Origin: a virus
Reading direction: 5' to 3' (one strand)
IMG/VR virus record: IMGVR_UViG_3300007540_000030
Coordinates: 1 to 42,629 of that record
Length of the DNA: 42,629 nt
Made by a program: the position numbers and the translations under genes. Position 1 is the stretch's first letter. Each line of letters opens with the position of its first letter. Positions 793-11,823 of the stretch are shown here, one piece after another. The notes under the pieces were generated by a model, which was not told the DNA's origin, ran no database searches, and worked only from the letters and a program-made list of their open reading frames with translations.

Positions 793-1299
793 ATGGGAAA
801 AAAGATTGAAGACATTCTATCCCACGGCGAATTCAAACAAAAAAAGAGAATTAATAGCCGTAGAAAAGGAAATGCATTTGAAAGAAAAATCTCTACATTG
901 TTAAACGAGAGATTTGAGACAAACGAGTTTTGCCGTTCTCCAGGTTCAGGAGCATTTGCAACAACTCATAAGTTACCTCAACACATTAAAGTCCACGGGG
1001 ACTTAATTACACCAGAAAAATTTAAATTTGTTATTGAGTGTAAATCAGGGTACACGGTTGAGCTTGACGATTTGTTCAAACCTAAATCAGATTTTTGGGC
1101 ATTTATCGACCAAGCTAAGAGAGATGCAAAAGCAGCCAATAAGGATTGGTTGATGGTGTACCAAAAAACTAGAAGAAAGGCAGTCGTGGTTTCTAATGTT
1201 AAATACGCTCTAAAGCATGTAGAGTTATTTGGAGACTGCTACATGTATAGCTTCGATGAGTTCATTAAGCTTCCTGTAAATTTTTTCTTCTCCGACTGA
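793..1299 (+). CDS. PD-(D/E)xK nuclease, Holliday-junction-resolvase-like
   Basis: This 168-residue protein has the motif order of small PD-(D/E)xK nucleases of the archaeal Hjc and phage resolvase type. These are a basic N-terminus, KGNAFERKIS with a conserved Glu at residue 30, FCRSPGSGAF, HGDLITP with the metal-binding Asp at 70, and FVIECKSG with the ExK pair Glu82 and Lys84. A DNA-processing role such as junction resolution or debranching before packaging is the best inference; a recombination or repair nuclease is an alternative. It is the only complete plus-strand gene in the window. Its start is 20 bases from the divergent 109-residue gene and has no visible Shine-Dalgarno sequence. 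Its last 75 bases overlap the end of the convergent 824-residue gene. Confidence 0.8.
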   Translation: MGKKIEDILSHGEFKQKKRINSRRKGNAFERKISTLLNERFETNEFCRSPGSGAFATTHKLPQHIKVHGDLITPEKFKFVIECKSGYTVELDDLFKPKSDFWAFIDQAKRDAKAANKDWLMVYQKTRRKAVVVSNVKYALKHVELFGDCYMYSFDEFIKLPVNFFFSD

Positions 1300-3699
1300 A
1301 TTAGTATTCTCTGAGATTGCTGTTGCAAGTATATCAAAGAGTTTAGGTTTAATCTTTGCTTCCATCTTAGGATAGAACACTCCTCCACCCCGAGAAGTTT
1401 TTCCTCTTAGGTCAGTGGAGAACACAACCTCGTTACCTATAGTCCAAGTATAACCTCCAGATGGGGTTCTCGTAGGCTTAGCTTTGCTTAAAACATATTT
1501 GGCTACTTGATGGTTGCCAGCGAAGCGTATCTCCCCTCTCATAGCTTTCATCATAGCGTCATCCTCTTCGGTGACGAAGGAGCTAATCAAATCATTCATT
1601 GCAAAACCTTCGTTTAGAGAAGGGTCTTGCTCTGCTTTCAACTGCCTCAGGCGACGAATAAAATTAATTCTAGCATTACCAATGGCAGTATTATCCTTGC
1701 TAGCTATGGCGGTATCGATTTCTTGTTGCCACTCACTAAGCATTCGTAGAGTATCCACATCCCCATCAGCCACGTCTCCTAACAAAACGGAGAATGTAGC
1801 TTTAATTGAAGAGCGAGCTCTAGCATCAGAGCCAAACATAGCCTCTGCTGAACGAGCAATAACAGCATCTACTTCCATAGCCTTCTCTGCTACATTACGC
1901 TGTGAGGGCTTTAAGAATTTCTTCCTGGTAGATGTAAACTCTGCTGCTTCCTCACACTTCTGCCTTTGTGCTGCAGTAGATAAAGTTTCGCAGGGGGTGT
2001 TGTGGTAAGCATATGCAGGAGTATAGTAAGAGCTGCCTGATGGAGTATCTTTATCAAACCCGCTTTGAGATTTTAGTGATACACCTACGCCGCCACCCCC
2101 GGTAGTGTCAACCGTTACCTGTCCTGCTCCCAAATCACTAAGGGCTTGAGCGAACTTTTGTGCATCGTTTACACTAGCAAACTCTACCATAAAATCTGCT
2201 TTAGTTGTGGCTGTAGAAACCTTACCTCTTGAAGTAACTCCAGTAGGGGATACCCCTGCATTTTTCGCTACCCGAGCTAAGAAATATGATTCTTTAATGG
2301 TGTCTTTTATATAATCGACAGCAGCTTTGTTACAATTGTCGGTGTCTATGTCTTTTAGTAGAGATTCAGAAGCGACTCTAGCATCCTCATGCTCAAACGT
2401 CATGCCTAAGTTGCCATCAGTAACAACAAAGTTCTGTATTTGCTCTCCCAAATCGCAGACATCCTTGATAGCTTGAGCAAATGCTTCCATGGCTTCGACA
2501 GTGGTAGCCACAGATTCGGTGCCGAAAAAAGTATTTAAAGTTCCAATCATCAAATCTTCTTTCTTAGTTCCTAAAACTTGATAGATGTTACCTGCCCCAC
2601 CACCAACACTAGAGTTAAAGATAGCGGGTCGGGTATCCCCCGTAGCGCTCCTCACTTCTATGCCTTTAAATTGAGAACAAATATCTTGAGTGTAGCTACC
2701 CATAGACATGCCATACATCTCTTGCCCTGCGTATTGAGGGGAAGAAGCCATACCCTCTAAATAGGCTGCGAAGTTAGGGGCTACTCTCTTAACCGAGTCC
2801 ATGGCTTGTCTTCTTCCAAACCAAGAACCCGCATTGGTTTTAGGGTTACGGCAAACAAAAGAATCTAAGAGTTTTCTTTCCCTGGGAGTTAAATCAGAAT
2901 CATCAATGTAAGAGCCCTCTTTGATTTTTTTTGCTACGCCTATCAAATCCACATGCGCATTAAAAATTTCTTTTTGTACTTCTGGAGCTACCCACGGAGT
3001 ATCCCCACCACGTAGAGACCTTTTGAACTTCATCAACTTGGTGTTGGCACCTGTAGGAGCTAATGTGATTCTATCGAATAAATCCTGAGCATCTATACCA
3101 GGAATAACACCATCCATCTTTTGCGCGGCTTTCTCTATCTCTCCTGGCTGAGCTTCATAAGGAACGTAGTCTGCTGTTTGGTCAATTTCTTGTCCTGTGT
3201 TTGTGTCGAATACAGTTCCGTCGCTTTCTGTTTCGGGTGCCTGTTCCCCTCCAGGCTCAGCCTTTAAATTTGCTTGAGCTCCTTCATCATCCGCAATATC
3301 ACCTTGCAAATACTCTATAGCTCCCGCTAGAGTTTTACTGTTGATTCCTGTATGTCCCCCGCCAACACTAAGAGTGTATCTTGTTCCTTTTTGTGTGCGG
3401 AACTCCACCTTAGGTAATGAGCCAGCTTTTTGCGAAGGAATATACATGGGGTCGTAAGTCCCCCCAGTTCCTCTCATCTGTTCGGGAGGCACTTGTAATT
3501 TTTGTAGAAGGTCTGCTTTAATTTGATTCTTTTGTGCGTCGGGTAATTTTGCCGTACCCCCCATCATGGAATTATATCTTCTACTTAGCTCTTGACGACC
3601 TTTATCTTTAGTAGAGGCATCTTCCTGTTCCGTAAGAGAATATTTTCTCTTTCGGATGGCTTCATAAGATTCCATTAGTTGGTCGAAGATAGATTCCAT
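1225..3699 (-). CDS. Large unrecognised protein downstream of the tail tube gene, possibly a virion protein
   Basis: This 824-residue protein is not recognised. It begins with a charged helix (MESIFDQLMESYEAIRKRKY), then a polar linker, a segment near 95-135 with a glycine-rich strand (TLSVGGGHTGIN), an acidic Pro/Gly linker at about 135-190, and a long mixed region. Around 498-543 it has TTKADFMVEF and later VGVSLKSQSG, an Asp and strand-SLK arrangement reminiscent of some PD-(D/E)xK folds, but the 41-residue spacing is long. SLNEG at 694-698 fits the L-x-E/G cleavage pattern of gp21-type proteases. The gene follows the tail tube, where T4 has its portal, but no portal-like features are seen. 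An ejected internal or tail-associated protein is an inference from position only. The ATG at 3699 lies just after a terminator-like hairpin, and its only GGAG is inside that stem. Confidence 0.7.
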   Translation of the reverse strand: MESIFDQLMESYEAIRKRKYSLTEQEDASTKDKGRQELSRRYNSMMGGTAKLPDAQKNQIKADLLQKLQVPPEQMRGTGGTYDPMYIPSQKAGSLPKVEFRTQKGTRYTLSVGGGHTGINSKTLAGAIEYLQGDIADDEGAQANLKAEPGGEQAPETESDGTVFDTNTGQEIDQTADYVPYEAQPGEIEKAAQKMDGVIPGIDAQDLFDRITLAPTGANTKLMKFKRSLRGGDTPWVAPEVQKEIFNAHVDLIGVAKKIKEGSYIDDSDLTPRERKLLDSFVCRNPKTNAGSWFGRRQAMDSVKRVAPNFAAYLEGMASSPQYAGQEMYGMSMGSYTQDICSQFKGIEVRSATGDTRPAIFNSSVGGGAGNIYQVLGTKKEDLMIGTLNTFFGTESVATTVEAMEAFAQAIKDVCDLGEQIQNFVVTDGNLGMTFEHEDARVASESLLKDIDTDNCNKAAVDYIKDTIKESYFLARVAKNAGVSPTGVTSRGKVSTATTKADFMVEFASVNDAQKFAQALSDLGAGQVTVDTTGGGGVGVSLKSQSGFDKDTPSGSSYYTPAYAYHNTPCETLSTAAQRQKCEEAAEFTSTRKKFLKPSQRNVAEKAMEVDAVIARSAEAMFGSDARARSSIKATFSVLLGDVADGDVDTLRMLSEWQQEIDTAIASKDNTAIGNARINFIRRLRQLKAEQDPSLNEGFAMNDLISSFVTEEDDAMMKAMRGEIRFAGNHQVAKYVLSKAKPTRTPSGGYTWTIGNEVVFSTDLRGKTSRGGGVFYPKMEAKIKPKLFDILATAISENTNSVGEEKIYRKLNELIEAIHVAVSK

Positions 3700-3706
3700 G
3701 TCAATA

Positions 3707-3742
3707 TAAAAGGCTCCCCACCATTAGATAGGAAGCCTTTTT
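3707..3742 (-). terminator. Hairpin terminator after the tail tube gene
   Basis: On the minus strand AAAAGGCTTCC pairs with GGAGCCTTTT across a 13-base loop with one bulged base, and the right arm runs on into TTTTATATT. It lies 18 bases after the tube gene stop and 7 bases before the next ATG. Its stem also contains the only Shine-Dalgarno-like GGAG of the downstream gene. The arms are rich in A and T at the base, so it may act on both strands. Confidence 0.7.
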
Positions 3743-3760: not shown

Positions 3761-4426
3761 TTAGCCAAGCCCGGGAATGAGGCTTCCTAAAAAGTTTTCA
3801 AAGGCGCTATCAGTGGTTTTATATTGTACAATCATATCGTACTTGATTTCGCAATCAATAGTTGCAAAATCATTCGTGCCATAAGAAAGTTCGCCAATAG
3901 ACCATTTGATTGGGAACGCGCCATAAAGCTTAGCTACCAGTTTTGGATTGCGCTGGTTATCTAATTGAATAACTTCTATCGTTCTCTTGAATTGGTCGCC
4001 TGCGATGACAGGGTTCGAGTGGGTACCAAAGATTGGGTCATAAGTTGTTCTCATCCACGCATATAGTAACTTAGCAGTATCTCCTTTAATCATATTATCA
4101 AAGGAAATGGTAGCCGTTTGCGTAGAAGGTCGTCCAGGATAGTAAAATCTATCGTTAACTTTGTTAACGTCGATAGTTTCTACGTTATAGGAAAGACCAG
4201 TTACACGGCGAGCTGCTAACGTTAAGGTATCGTTGGTGTCAGTAAAATTAAAGAAGTTATCTACTGTACCAAGAATACCAGCTATATTAGGGATTCTAAC
4301 AATCCACCCATACGCCCGAAAAGAATCGTACATATGTGTGAGTTTGTGACCTTCGGTGATGTCGATATCAAGTTCACGGGAGCTTTGCCTCCAAAACTCG
4401 TCTACTGCTTCTACGTTAAATGCCAT
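3761..4426 (-). CDS. gp19: Tail tube protein, T4 gp19-like
   Basis: This 221-residue protein directly follows the sheath gene, as gp19 follows gp18 in T4. It shows the tube-protein pattern: an N-terminal helix (VDEFWRQSSREL), a segment beginning YGWIVRIPNIAG, a conserved region with FYYPGRP and TATISFDNM, AWMRTTYDP, then paired strands ending in GAFPIKWSIGELSY and ATIDCEIKYDMIVQY. Stacked hexamers of this protein form the inner tube through which DNA is ejected. It is longer than T4 gp19 (163 residues), with an extended N-terminus and a short hydrophobic C-terminal tail (FENFLGSLIPGLG). AGGAG at 4435-4439 is a good ribosome-binding site, and a CTATATAATA element lies just upstream. A terminator hairpin follows the stop codon. 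Confidence 0.88.
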   Translation of the reverse strand: MAFNVEAVDEFWRQSSRELDIDITEGHKLTHMYDSFRAYGWIVRIPNIAGILGTVDNFFNFTDTNDTLTLAARRVTGLSYNVETIDVNKVNDRFYYPGRPSTQTATISFDNMIKGDTAKLLYAWMRTTYDPIFGTHSNPVIAGDQFKRTIEVIQLDNQRNPKLVAKLYGAFPIKWSIGELSYGTNDFATIDCEIKYDMIVQYKTTDSAFENFLGSLIPGLG

Positions 4427-4454: not shown

Positions 4455-6875
4455 CTAGCTAGCGCTTGCCACTCCTCCAGTCTGGCTAGTTACGTTGATT
4501 TCGAATACGACAATTTCTGCAGTTTTCGTAGGCTGTACGATTACCTTACACCAGAGTTCGTTTCTATCGATTCTAGCTGGAGTATTTACTGTCTCATCGC
4601 AGATTACCTTAAAGGCGTCTAAGCCTCTACGGTCTTTAATGTCTTGCAAGAGTGGTTGCAGAACATCAACAATTTGTTGTCTAGTGATTGCATCATTAGG
4701 TTCGAACACAAAGCGTCTAGTACCAGCTAGGATTTGTTTCCTAATTTGAATCATTAGTCGTCTTACGTTAATTCTATCCAGGGCGGTAGAGGCTCTTTGA
4801 GCAGTTCTTTGCCCGAAGATTACTAAACCGTCCTGAGGGAAGCTTACAATTGGGTTGATTACGTTGCCTCCAGCGTATAGAGTATCTCTGTCGCCTTGGT
4901 TAAGAGTAACTTCAGCTTCAGTAGGCTTGGTTAGTCTGCCTCTTCTCAAACCAGCAGGAGCAAACCATGGGTCTGCAACTTCATCTGTGAATGCCATCTG
5001 TCTGACAGCAAACACACCTGGGTCTAGATACTGGTCGGTAGCAGTGAAGACATTGAAAGTCTTTAGCCATGACCAATAAATAGCAGCGTAAGAGGAGTTA
5101 AGTGGAGAAGTTCTTCCATCACCTTTTCCGTTATGCCAGTTGATGGCTTCTTGTGCAGTTTTCAATCCTTGTGGGGGAGATAGTACAGCTAAGAAGTTTT
5201 GAGTTTGCTCAGCAACTGTTACTAAGTTATTTTGAACTGATTGCGTAGTAATACCTGGAACTAGGCACAGAGATAGGTTTAAGGTATCATCTCTGAAAGC
5301 CTGCATACCGCTTCTGTTTACTTGGTTTCCAATCAGCGCTTGAGTTACATTAGTATTAGTTAGGCTGTTGTTGTAGCTACCTGCGTCACCATTTACCCCG
5401 CTAACAAAGTCGTAGTTTCCTGCGAGTACTTTAGGGAAGGTTAGTGTTTGTGCACCGTTAGCGTTGTTAAGAGCTAATGAAGCTGCGTAACTAATGCCTT
5501 GTTGGGCGTTACCACTAACACCATTTTGTGCAGCTGCCGTGAACGTTCCACTGTACGTAGTAGGTCTGGTAGTTGTAGCCGCTCCTGCATAGAAGTTGTT
5601 AGAGTCTACATAAGCAAATCTAGCGTAGTACAAGTCTGACGTTTCGTTATTGCCATAAGTATTGGTATTAAGCACATCCATAACATCGTAAAGAGTGCTG
5701 TTCGGGTCATTAACAAAATCTACAATATTGCTCTCAGCGGTAGCGCCGTCACTTTGCATATCAAAGACGGTATCCTTGCCTCTCTTGGCAGTAACCGCAG
5801 CTCGCAAGCCATAGGTAGTGACTCCAGTGCCTGTATTAGTAGAAGAGTAGTTATACCCTAAGCCTGGATGTAGTGATTGTAGGTTAATCGTACCACCCGT
5901 TGCCGAGGTAGGAGCTATGGTATTACCTAGAGAGTATACGCCAGAGCCGACCCAGCCTGATGCGTCTGCATCAGTGGGAAGTCCCGATAGTCCACCTTCG
6001 GCAAATCTCCAACTGTGCTGAACGTCTCCCATGGCAGTATAATCAACACCAGGAGTTCCAAACAGTCTCAGACCCCCCGCAGGACCAGCCATAGAGCTAG
6101 GAGCTCCGAAAGGCTTATCGTCGTTGTCTAAGAAGCCAGCGTTACTTCGTAAATCACTTACAGAAGGTTGAGCTACAGTTCCTCCAGGTCCTTGTAGAGA
6201 TACATCTCCACCACCAGCGACCTGACCAGTAGAGCCTAAAGCGCTAAAGTGGCTTGCAGTACTGGCAAAACCGCGAACTTTCATGTAAGCACCTGCGCCA
6301 GCGAACTTAGAAACGAAAGCGCCAACGTGTCCTTCATCGCCGCTAACGAAAGTAAACGGAGCAGATTCATCTAGGTACGTGGCTACAGTTTCGTTAATAG
6401 TATTAATAACTTGGTCTTGGTCAGTAGAGCTTGGCACACCGACAACGTAAGGGTTATCAGGGCTTACTTGAACTCCATCTTGGTTCCAAACATCAATGAG
6501 GAAAGCGTAAGAAACTCCAACACCAGCCGATTCGTTAAGACCACTTAGGGAGGAAACCCAGACAGCAGGCTGAGTACCAGCCGATACGTTTACGCTAGCA
6601 GCACTTTGTGTTTGAGCTGCTGCACGAACGAAGTAAACTGAGTTTGTTCTCTCCAGAATTTGGTAAGCACCCCACAGACCCTGACCGCCAACAACAGTTC
6701 TTGGGTCACCAAAAGTGTTGATTAACTGCTCTGCATTAGATACTAAGATTGCCTTATCTACGGGACCTTTAGACCCAAAGCCGAGAACCCCAACAACACT
6801 GCTGTTGAGGGAAGGGATGTAATCAGAAAAATCTTTTTCTATTACATAATTTCCGGGACTTACGAAACTTGCCAT
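4455..6875 (-). CDS. gp18: Tail sheath protein, T4 gp18-like
   Basis: This 806-residue protein is the contractile sheath subunit. The N-terminus has the hallmark SPGNYVIEKDFSDYIP, then VVGVLGFGSKGPVDKAILV and LINTFGDPR. The C-terminal third holds the conserved core: RLMIQIRKQILAGTRRFVFE, PNDAITRQQIVDVLQPLL, RRGLDAFKVICDET, NTPARIDRNELWCKVIVQP and KTAEIVVFEINV. That core forms the subunit-linking strands and the tube-facing layer. T4 gp18 has 659 residues; the extra length lies in the variable, Ser/Gly/Asn-rich outer domains at about 100-500. AGGAG at 6883-6887 is a strong ribosome-binding site. It is encoded between the small 80-residue protein and the tube protein. Confidence 0.93.
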   Translation of the reverse strand: MASFVSPGNYVIEKDFSDYIPSLNSSVVGVLGFGSKGPVDKAILVSNAEQLINTFGDPRTVVGGQGLWGAYQILERTNSVYFVRAAAQTQSAASVNVSAGTQPAVWVSSLSGLNESAGVGVSYAFLIDVWNQDGVQVSPDNPYVVGVPSSTDQDQVINTINETVATYLDESAPFTFVSGDEGHVGAFVSKFAGAGAYMKVRGFASTASHFSALGSTGQVAGGGDVSLQGPGGTVAQPSVSDLRSNAGFLDNDDKPFGAPSSMAGPAGGLRLFGTPGVDYTAMGDVQHSWRFAEGGLSGLPTDADASGWVGSGVYSLGNTIAPTSATGGTINLQSLHPGLGYNYSSTNTGTGVTTYGLRAAVTAKRGKDTVFDMQSDGATAESNIVDFVNDPNSTLYDVMDVLNTNTYGNNETSDLYYARFAYVDSNNFYAGAATTTRPTTYSGTFTAAAQNGVSGNAQQGISYAASLALNNANGAQTLTFPKVLAGNYDFVSGVNGDAGSYNNSLTNTNVTQALIGNQVNRSGMQAFRDDTLNLSLCLVPGITTQSVQNNLVTVAEQTQNFLAVLSPPQGLKTAQEAINWHNGKGDGRTSPLNSSYAAIYWSWLKTFNVFTATDQYLDPGVFAVRQMAFTDEVADPWFAPAGLRRGRLTKPTEAEVTLNQGDRDTLYAGGNVINPIVSFPQDGLVIFGQRTAQRASTALDRINVRRLMIQIRKQILAGTRRFVFEPNDAITRQQIVDVLQPLLQDIKDRRGLDAFKVICDETVNTPARIDRNELWCKVIVQPTKTAEIVVFEINVTSQTGGVASAS

Positions 6876-8917: not shown

Positions 8918-10519
8918 TTAGGGAGCGACTTGGCTATTCAGAGATGCCTTAGCGAACGGAGTTAACAGGTAGTTAGAGTTCGCGCCGATAACACGGATGA
9001 TTCGGTAGAATCTGGACTCAGGTCCAATACCGACCTTGCCGTACCTAGTGAGCAAGCCCTTTCTAGGTTGGAAGGTTTCTGGGTCCGTAATGGTTGGTAG
9101 CATCTGGAGCGGAATGTATGGGCAGTAGCAGTAGCCAGCATCCATAGGTGAAGAACCTTTGTAGCCCAGCATGATTTCATCATCTGGGTAAAGCGGGTCA
9201 ACGTAAACGTCGAACTGACCCATGAACTTACCTTTGTATTGGATGTTAGCACCGAGAGTGCCGATTTCCTCCTTAGGTGCGCCACCCTCAAGCTTAGAAG
9301 CTGAGTAAAGGATAGCAGCCATGAATGGAGAAGTAACAATCCAGTTAGCAGCACCACGCAAGGTACTCTTGTAGATATCTTGCGAAGCGAACTGAATCGC
9401 AGCCAACAAGTTGGCATATACTTCACCAACGTGACGAGGAGCTAGACCAAGTGCACTCGTACCAAAGTCCACAAGAAGGACGTTTTGTAGCGAGCCAGCA
9501 GGGTTAGTACCAAAGTAACCGTTAGTGGAATCGTATTGGTCGGTAGTAACACCAAACTTGTTGGCATTATCGACACCATTCATAGCGTAATCGAATGCGC
9601 CTGGAGTAAAGTTTACGCCATCGCTACCAAAGTTGTTAGCGTTAGGCTGTTCCAGGTTGCCACGATAACCCCATGCAGCAGAGTTCAGACCCCAATCGTA
9701 AGCTAGGTTACGAATGTCTTCGATGATTTCACGGTCAATCTCAAGAGCAACTTCCTTACCAAGAAGGTCAGTCAGTTCACGCTCTAGGTCAAGGTTGTGA
9801 TAAGCACGAAGGTCTTGTGCAGCCTCTAACGTCCAGAGAGCACGGAACTTACGGGTACGAGCCGTAACTGCCTGCTGTTCGATGTGGAAGTTAATTTGAG
9901 GAATAGCTGAACCAGAAAGTCTTTCACCAGCAGATACGTTGTACTTAGCACCGTAGTAATCAGTTGGAGCAACAGAACTTGGGAAGTTCGCAATGAAACC
10001 ACCGACTGTATCAGGTGATGCAGTAAAAGCGTTACCAGAAAGACCAGATAGAGTCTTACCGCCAGCGCCAGCAGCGTCAGTGCTTACATCAAGTGCGCCT
10101 AGGTTACCCTGGGTAGTAGCAATCTTGCCTGCATAAGTGATGTTAAATCTGCTGTACATAGTGTTACCTTCACCACCGGCAGGGTTAGTAACTCGGTCAC
10201 TACCTAAGTAGAATACCTGAGAAACTGGACCTTGCATGGGCTGAACACCAGCAATCTTGTTAGCAATTAGTTCCGGGAACACGCGGCGAACTAGTGGGAA
10301 AGCGAACTTTTGAAAGGTACCGAGGTTGCCTACAGTAGTATCTTCTGAAAGCAAGCCGCCGTTCTCTTTCTGCATGTCAGTAAGGACGCTACGAGCTTGG
10401 TTTTCAAGAAGGACAGCAGTAGACTCGCGAACATACGCGTCATCAATACCCTCAAGAATAGGCTCCCACTTATGAATGAGAGGATTACCCTCTCTAGAAT
10501 TTTCAGTGAGATATTGCAT
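8918..10519 (-). CDS. gp23: Major capsid protein, T4 gp23-like
   Basis: This 533-residue protein is the major head subunit. The N-terminal region WEPILEGIDDAYVRESTAVL then LLENQARSVL is typical of gp23 precursors, and FPLVRRVFPELIANKIAGVQ followed by PMQGPVSQVFYL is the family hallmark. Later conserved-looking parts include KFRALWTLEAAQDLRAYHNL, DLERELTDLLGKEVALEIDR, WIVTSPFMAAILYSA and the C-terminal YLLTPFAKASLN. The length is close to T4 gp23 (521). ILE/G at 21-24 fits the gp21 cleavage pattern, though the T4 propeptide is longer, so the true processing site is uncertain. GAGGGGAG at 10529-10536 is a very strong ribosome-binding site. It follows the scaffold gene by two bases and is closed by a strong terminator. 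Confidence 0.94.
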   Translation of the reverse strand: MQYLTENSREGNPLIHKWEPILEGIDDAYVRESTAVLLENQARSVLTDMQKENGGLLSEDTTVGNLGTFQKFAFPLVRRVFPELIANKIAGVQPMQGPVSQVFYLGSDRVTNPAGGEGNTMYSRFNITYAGKIATTQGNLGALDVSTDAAGAGGKTLSGLSGNAFTASPDTVGGFIANFPSSVAPTDYYGAKYNVSAGERLSGSAIPQINFHIEQQAVTARTRKFRALWTLEAAQDLRAYHNLDLERELTDLLGKEVALEIDREIIEDIRNLAYDWGLNSAAWGYRGNLEQPNANNFGSDGVNFTPGAFDYAMNGVDNANKFGVTTDQYDSTNGYFGTNPAGSLQNVLLVDFGTSALGLAPRHVGEVYANLLAAIQFASQDIYKSTLRGAANWIVTSPFMAAILYSASKLEGGAPKEEIGTLGANIQYKGKFMGQFDVYVDPLYPDDEIMLGYKGSSPMDAGYCYCPYIPLQMLPTITDPETFQPRKGLLTRYGKVGIGPESRFYRIIRVIGANSNYLLTPFAKASLNSQVAP

Positions 10520-11208: not shown

Positions 11209-11823
11209 TTACTTTTTGCGCAGTTTTTTCTTTAGCGCAGTAATAAAAACTTTTTCTGCTTTTAAGTTTTCAAGATTCTCTACTATATGCTCCCTTTGTT
11301 CGGACACTAGTTGAGATTCTTGAAGGGTAGGGAATGCTCCCTGACAGGAGGGGTCGGACACCATATCCCATGTAATCATCTTTAGGTTGTCTCCAACTTG
11401 CATATGGTTTTCACCTACAATAGGAGTTAGTGTTCCGGTGCCTCTAGATGAGATACCAATCTTAACACCTGCCTTTAGTAGTTCTTGAAGAACTTTACCG
11501 GAAGGGGTGTTTAAAATCTCTGCTTCTCCTATAACTTGGTTGCCTTCCATATGCAAACCAGTTATTAAATGGGAAGCATTAGTTAAGTGAACTACTTCAT
11601 TAGAAGGATGGTCTAGCTCACCGACTAATCTTCTTTCGGCAATCATTTCCTGCAATCTATTAACTTCTCGCGCAAGAGTATCTTTTTTATAGATTCTTTT
11701 GTTACCATTCGCTTTTTCTGCCTCTTGGAACAGACCTCTAACTTTCATGTTTCCATTTCCGCCACGAGACTCACTAATAATTTCAACGTGACCAAATCCA
11801 TAAAAATCTCTTAGTAAACTCAT
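11209..11823 (-). CDS. gp21: Prohead maturation protease, T4 gp21-like
   Basis: This 204-residue protein is the serine protease that matures the prohead by cutting scaffold, core and capsid proteins. The family signatures are present in order: GNMKVRGLFQEAEKANGNKR then IY near 25-45, RLVGELDHPSNEVVHL with the catalytic His72, SHLITGLHMEGNQVIGEAEI, LNTPSGKVLQELLKAG, and VKIGISSRGTGTL with the catalytic serine in S125-S126. MVSDPSCQGAF follows. The basic C-terminal tail (FITALKKKLRKK) may be a regulatory or core-binding segment. The start overlaps the previous stop as ATGA, with AAGGAG upstream. Order and content match the T4 67-68-21-22-23 block. Confidence 0.93.
   Translation of the reverse strand: MSLLRDFYGFGHVEIISESRGGNGNMKVRGLFQEAEKANGNKRIYKKDTLAREVNRLQEMIAERRLVGELDHPSNEVVHLTNASHLITGLHMEGNQVIGEAEILNTPSGKVLQELLKAGVKIGISSRGTGTLTPIVGENHMQVGDNLKMITWDMVSDPSCQGAFPTLQESQLVSEQREHIVENLENLKAEKVFITALKKKLRKK

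Follow-up and report, generated by a model that had tools for sequence, protein, structure and literature searches.

A clade-wide gene following the tail tube gene of a T4-like phage encodes a candidate capsid-targeted PD-(D/E)xK-like nuclease

In the IMG/VR virus record IMGVR_UViG_3300007540_000030 (positions 1 to 42,629, the whole 42,629-nucleotide stretch being referred to hereafter as the window), an open reading frame (ORF) on the minus strand at 1225-3699 was confirmed to comprise 824 codons and to lie immediately downstream of the tail sheath and tail tube genes. With slightly better than even confidence, we consider that its product is best explained as a PD-(D/E)xK-like nuclease that a cleavable tag directs to the prohead and that is probably injected. 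In the proposed scheme, the enzyme would be made together with the late structural gene products; its first approximately 24 residues (3628-3699, minus strand) would bind the prohead core as a capsid-targeting sequence, and the prohead protease would cleave after the [LI]xE motif at its end (LTE, residue 24) in the course of head maturation. The mature enzyme would then remain in the head alongside the DNA and enter the host at infection, where a Glu381-Asp502-Lys543 center would bind metal and cut DNA, most likely that of the host or of a competitor. The comparisons described below establish the conservation of the family, its place behind the tube gene, the invariant Glu-Asp-Lys set, and the conserved [LI]xE site, and they give the fold some support; cleavage, packaging, injection, catalysis, and target are all inferred from them.

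Relatives of the locus were fetched by means of the sheath gene (the best 80 of 321 related viral loci) and with two further sheaths as queries (34 loci, and the best 80 of 239), some contigs recurring among these sets; the presence of the family was scored over 111 distinct tube sequences. Of the distinct close-clade loci, 40 had at least 900 bases of room, and in all 40 a homologue of the 824-residue protein adjoined the tube gene; with at least 300 bases of room, 47 of 50 close loci had one, the three misses (L031, L054, and L073) offering 366-882 bases. Among 42 more distant tubes with 900 bases of room, a homologue was found beside four, all of them close to the distance cut-off. The family is therefore a fixed gene of one T4-like phage clade. 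Its sole match in the genome collection was a 130-kb contig from a single-cell assembly of Prochlorococcus, in which sheath, tube, and homologue occur in the same order; Prochlorococcus here denotes the source of the assembly, and the host of the phage is not read from it. When six cultured phages were searched with the family profile, none matched (0/6), while three IMG/VR records searched alongside did; against stretches of cultured phages the best E-value was 0.13, and tblastn of the 824-residue protein and the members L076, L091, and L039 against phage records gave no match. The gene itself is under purifying selection, with nonsynonymous (dN) and synonymous (dS) divergence from its near relative L003 of 0.008 and 0.042, respectively (ratio 0.18); against the 65%-identical L010, dN was 0.266 and dS was not computable, presumably owing to saturation. 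Beyond the nearest relatives, most members are 12-18% identical to the 824-residue protein (with L003 as its stand-in), whereas most sheaths among the best 80 of 321 fetched loci keep 37-51% identity in their best segment.

The invariant residues were determined in an alignment of 38 members, namely the 42 with E < 1e-10 and at least 700 residues minus four near-duplicates (more than 95% identical); the window protein is represented therein by L003 (98% identical, same numbering), and L036 and L115 run to contig ends. Only four columns were identical in all 38 members, namely Tyr12, Glu381 (codon at 2557-2559, minus strand), Asp502 (2194-2196), and Lys543 (2071-2073). All four recurred in the Prochlorococcus single-cell member, which was found after the columns had been fixed and which also has Ser541 and Gly555. 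In terms of the PD-(D/E)xK class, Glu381, situated in helix 368-391 of the core model described below, and Asp502 correspond to the acid of the first helix and the catalytic Asp, and Lys543 to the Lys of motif III, in all 38 members and in the later one. A coarser alignment of 33 sequences (A2) had Tyr12, Gly114, Asp502, and Lys543 as its invariant columns, and in an alignment of 38 core regions (A3) Glu381 and Asp502 were invariant, with Lys543 present in at least 90% of the rows; we took the differences among the three for misalignment. The retention of Asp502 and Lys543 is more than chance, as all 38 diverged members have both. An earlier note on this DNA had likened the segments KADFMVEF (residues 500-507) and VGVSLKS (residues 538-544) to PD-(D/E)xK elements, and this proposal was borne out insofar as Asp502 and Lys543 within them, which the note had singled out from one sequence, make up two of the four invariant columns and Glu381 a third. 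The LNEG site of the same note, at residues 695-698, fared otherwise: it reads VDRG in 65%-identical homologues and, not being conserved, was rejected as a cleavage site.

The structure prediction and fold search that the note had called for gave a moderate match to a restriction endonuclease. The full-length AlphaFold2 model (33 sequences) had a mean predicted local distance difference test score (pLDDT) of 62.9, almost every one of the first 181 residues scoring below 50, and the model of the core alone (residues 360-824, 38 sequences) reached a pLDDT of 76.5 and a predicted template modeling score of 0.76. Block averages of the pLDDT in the core model were 87-96 over residues 500-539, 88 around Glu381, and 77 around Lys543; Asp502 stands just before strand 503-506, and Lys543 within strand 537-544. 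By VIA-align, which re-aligns the top 1000 chains of Foldseek, the PD-(D/E)xK enzyme HinP1I ranked first for both models, which overlap and are thus not independent: Z was 9.0 and 7.8 for the full-length model (root-mean-square deviation (rmsd) 4.5, 221 residues aligned) and 8.7 and 6.3 for the core model (rmsd 4.4, 227/247 residues aligned). The best HinP1I chain stood 2.5 and 2.8 above the best unrelated rows (Z 6.5 and 5.9), and MspI (Z 6.8, full-length model) and HhaI endonuclease (Z 4.5, core model) appeared level with unrelated rows. MspI and HinP1I are grouped as similar enzymes in a passage of PMC7337904. The models lend moderate support to a PD-(D/E)xK-like fold for the predicted core (residues 364-791; 1327-2610, minus strand), and the HinP1I match suggests that Asp502 and Lys543 may meet in space. 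The family differs from HinP1I and MspI in having approximately 300-410 residues before the core and a virion-type N-terminus.

At this N-terminus, all 38 members carry [LI]xE within residues 13-45; shuffling of each member's own residues over 500 rounds yielded 13.9 on average and never more than 22 of 38, kinship being uncorrected in this comparison. Among control proteins from the same loci, the motif stood at residues 13-45 in four of the 38 tubes and three of the 37 sheaths, and stretches elsewhere in the family proteins had it in 4 to 21 of 38. A stricter pattern of the kind M..F..LL.SY opens 30 of the 38 members, and it recurred in one other ORF (103 residues) of the sister record and in none other of the single-cell contig. 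[LI]xE is the motif of the T4 prohead protease, and the window encodes a T4-type prohead (head maturation) protease at 11209-11823 on the minus strand (phrog_207, E 3.7e-50), the presumed processing enzyme, so that two of the features expected of a capsid-targeted internal protein were found. Passages of PMC9026906 and PMC5694885 state that the prohead protease cleaves head proteins of T4 and of giant phages behind glutamate. As described in passages of PMC9026906, propeptides 10-19 residues long guide cargo into the T4 head, and both EcoRI and staphylococcal nuclease have been loaded into T4 through fusions of this kind. The internal proteins of T4 differ between phages, and one of them, IPI, is injected (passages of PMC3012670 and PMC9026906). 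The 824-residue protein resembles these internal proteins and Alt in combining a short N-terminal stretch bearing [LI]xE with a phage that has a T4-type prohead protease, but it is much larger, nuclease-like, and encoded after the tube gene, and its predicted propeptide has 24 residues as against 10-19 in T4. The conserved N-terminal motif lends indirect support to the view, also voiced in the earlier note, of a head-internal enzyme or injected protein. The rapid divergence around a fixed active site likewise fits an effector in host conflict.

Several observations weigh against a capsid-targeted nuclease. The [LI]xE motif is meaningful only family-wide, because half of the window proteins (14 of 28), among them the tube, carry it at residues 13-45. 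Glu381 was not invariant in the coarser alignment A2. The acid expected two before Lys543 is replaced: at this position, Ser541 in the window protein (2077-2079, minus strand), almost every member has S, N, G, or A, and L124 has E. Among accepted PD-(D/E)xK members the Asp/Glu two before the motif III Lys varies, HinP1I having Gln and MspI Asn there, and an Asp...xxLys arrangement with a non-acidic residue at this position would be a further likeness to these two enzymes. For MspI this is at odds with a passage of PMC4081073, in which Asn replaces the Lys itself. None of the sequence libraries (Pfam, PHROGs, PDB sequences, PADLOC, and NCBIfam) gave a convincing match: the 824-residue protein matched nothing in Pfam or PHROGs and nothing below E 0.8 among PDB sequences, no convincing Pfam or PHROGs annotation was obtained for any of 33 family members scanned, and the PF11463 (R-HINP1I) profile had no match in the window at E-values up to 10, a difference from HinP1I at the level of sequence. 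Isolated weak matches of one or two members each (for example TelA, E 1.6e-4; SufT, E 6.4e-4; PADLOC RmrA, E 0.047) were dismissed, as was NF040876 for the window core itself (0.0022; 17.3 bits against a cut-off of 250); Rfam gave no match. A Z of 8.7-9 is moderate, the typical best Z of the tool in the absence of a clear match being 7 to 8, and MspI was not among the rows listed for the core model. In Foldseek searches against the PDB, neither model gave anything below E 0.1, and the matches obtained were weak and mixed, pyrrolysyl-tRNA synthetase being an example. Such matches would accommodate an explanation in which Glu381, Asp502, and Lys543 belong to some other metal enzyme that is not a nuclease; we regard this as quite improbable, given template modeling (TM) scores of at most approximately 0.2 and rmsd values of approximately 8-27 Å for these matches, and a finer aligner that places HinP1I first.

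The same active-site and fold evidence would equally serve a nuclease that acts at the assembly stage, inside the infected cell or within the prohead, where it might for instance trim or resolve DNA for packaging; its tag would keep it near the head, and it would not be injected. The genomic setting offers this possibility some support. The convergent neighbor of the gene, at 793-1299 on the plus strand, encodes a phage endonuclease of the PDDEXK_15 family (PF24608, E 9.6e-23), and an endonuclease of this kind occurs in all 11 of the searched records that bear the family gene, in each of which, by arithmetic on the coordinates, it is the convergent neighbor of the family gene. This endonuclease is likewise of the PD-(D/E)xK type and adjoins the 824-codon gene, but it forms a small gene of its own on the opposite strand. 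In addition, the proposed cyanophage relatives described below sit near primase-helicase and mazG genes. On the other hand, the fast divergence relative to the sheaths suits an effector better, and the T4 terminase gp17 already has a packaging nuclease (PMC3012670, in part). Taken together, we consider a role confined to assembly rather unlikely. As an observation on its own, the 3' ends of the two genes overlap by 75 bases, 793-1299 and 1225-3699 thus forming an overlapping convergent pair of nuclease-type genes.

The cyanophage relatives came from a Foldseek search against viral models, in which one significant match was obtained, a 433-residue protein of Synechococcus phage ACG-2014f (E 6.0e-5, probability 1.00, TM 0.20/0.33). 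By its length, we took this protein to be gp175 (L210:19355-20656), a member of phrog_3560, whose function is listed as unknown. An E...D...SLK arrangement is common to gp175 and its three relatives in Syn19, S-RIM8, and a Desulfovibrio phage (4/4), and gp175 is a possible unrecognized nuclease. The likeness of our family to phrog_3560 and phrog_33928, the latter also of unknown function, consists of the Foldseek match and this arrangement; they differ in that P0002, inspected by eye, has no [LI]xE at residues 13-45 and in that the gene neighborhood is another one. Profile comparison of the family with the cyanophage protein gave no homology (hhalign probability < 1%).

The position of the gene raises the question of structural roles. 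The earlier note had placed it in the "portal position" on the ground that in T4 the portal gene comes right behind the tube gene. This order was indeed seen in Pelagibacter phage HTVC008M and Synechococcus phage ACG-2014f, whereas immuto, LIS04, and SP-15 have an annotated baseplate hub gene, and not the portal gene, behind the tube. The term "portal position" thus holds for the place alone, since the T4-type portal sits elsewhere in the 84-kb sister record G001, where a Portal_T4 gene (E 2.6e-84) lies approximately 49 kb away from the family gene. Three of five further records (G005, G006, and G007) have a separate Portal_T4 gene in addition to the family gene; none was found in the fragment records G000, G002, G003, G008, and G009. 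The T4 portal profile (PF07230) matched neither the 824-residue protein nor anything else within the 42.6-kb window, itself a fragment, and the protein is without a match to portal families. A divergent portal or portal stand-in, which the place after the tube gene in HTVC008M and ACG-2014f might have suggested, is refuted by the existence of these separate portal genes, and replacement of the portal by the 824-residue protein was accordingly rejected.

The tail component that had also been put forward in the earlier note has positional support only, the baseplate hub gene following the tube in the three cultured phages immuto, LIS04, and SP-15; the family profile matched nothing there below E 0.1. 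More broadly, the protein might be a structural component of head, neck, or tail that keeps only a degenerate nuclease fold. The fixed place in the virion gene block, the occupation of this place by the hub gene in those three phages, the missing canonical acid of motif III, and the N-terminal 181 residues without a reliable model all agree with such a component. Nevertheless, Glu, Asp, and Lys, together with Tyr12, are the only invariant residues where nearly all other identity has been lost, as expected for catalysis, and we therefore hold a purely structural role to be improbable.

Literature searches for an injected or virion-associated phage nuclease returned none that fits among the papers listed, and in the main text of a survey of far-T4 phages, insofar as PMC4360716 was covered, "nuclease" (as a word start), "tail tube", and "gp19" were absent. 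The candidate is thus a known fold class in an unusual place. If the capsid-targeted nuclease is real, nature would have its own version of the T4 heads engineered to carry EcoRI or staphylococcal nuclease (PMC9026906, in part), and a conserved gene of a whole T4-like clade would deliver a nuclease at the moment of infection. The analysis also provides a testable role, and names the very residues to mutate, for a family without convincing annotation in Pfam or PHROGs; how the genome inside the head would escape the enzyme is a question that then arises.

A further reading turns on missing 4-bp palindromes. The window (1-42629) contains no GATC (136.7 expected) and no GGCC (59.7 expected); the sister record has GATC 0 times (276.4 expected) and GGCC once (113.3 expected), and the 130-kb Prochlorococcus single-cell contig (L226-L232) is devoid of ACGT (177.4 expected) and CCGG (105.4 expected). 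Counted over loci of at least 6 kb, one per distinct tube and with close-tube loci lacking a detected member left out of both groups, near-absent palindromes were seen in 29 of the 47 loci bearing the family and in one of the 33 outgroup loci, without control for hosts or habitats; by its sheath, this single outgroup locus, L030, is close to loci that bear the family. If the virion carried a nuclease specific for a 4-bp palindrome and the genome had been purged of the site as self-protection without methylation, a restriction enzyme would have been turned into an injected weapon protected by site loss. We regard this as very doubtful. Two sites are gone, where one enzyme would explain one, and pairs of loci whose proteins are 78.5% and 64% identical disagree in GATC content (L079 0 against 31.5 expected and L112 7 against 24.0; L053 0 against 27.2 and L082 17 against 38.8). 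Moreover, RM378 (GGCC 0 against 59.8 expected, CTAG 0 against 41.8) and HTVC008M (CGCG 0 against 11.6) are likewise missing some 4-mers, and no family member was detected in either. Avoidance of host restriction explains the missing palindromes at least equally well. Dam methylase was found in 0 of 12 records, an uninformative count as most of these are fragments.

As for the remainder of the locus, the ORF is the last of a run of virion genes, among them those for the major head protein (gp23-like; 8918-10519, minus strand; phrog_138, E 1e-81), a head-tail adaptor (Ad2), a candidate sheath stabilizer, the tail sheath (4455-6875, minus strand; phrog_23, E 7.2e-66), and the tail tube protein (gp19-like; 3761-4426, minus strand; PF06841, phrog_4542). 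The tube gene is followed by a strong terminator-like hairpin with a 15-bp stem at 3708-3741 (minus strand; folded on the identical stretch of L019), just after which the 824-codon gene starts. The earlier remark that the gene lies behind its own terminator therefore agrees with the folding, whereas the hairpin is absent from the output of a simple consensus terminator scan. The 75 bases upstream of the family gene folded with z < -3 relative to shuffled sequences in 30 of 38 members, and four (L066, L081, L086, and L087) gave no hairpin signal there. The hairpin is retained in most relatives despite altered stem sequences, and its GGGGAG could belong to a ribosome-binding region. Elsewhere in the window, a small ORF at 142-549 weakly resembles thioredoxin (PF00085, E 1.3e-4, narrowly under the cut-off). 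Finally, a family-A DNA polymerase occurs in the relative L010 (12792-15492) as two ORFs approximately 175 bases apart, one exonuclease-like, a label given by eye, and the other polymerase-like, matching phage DNA polymerase I.

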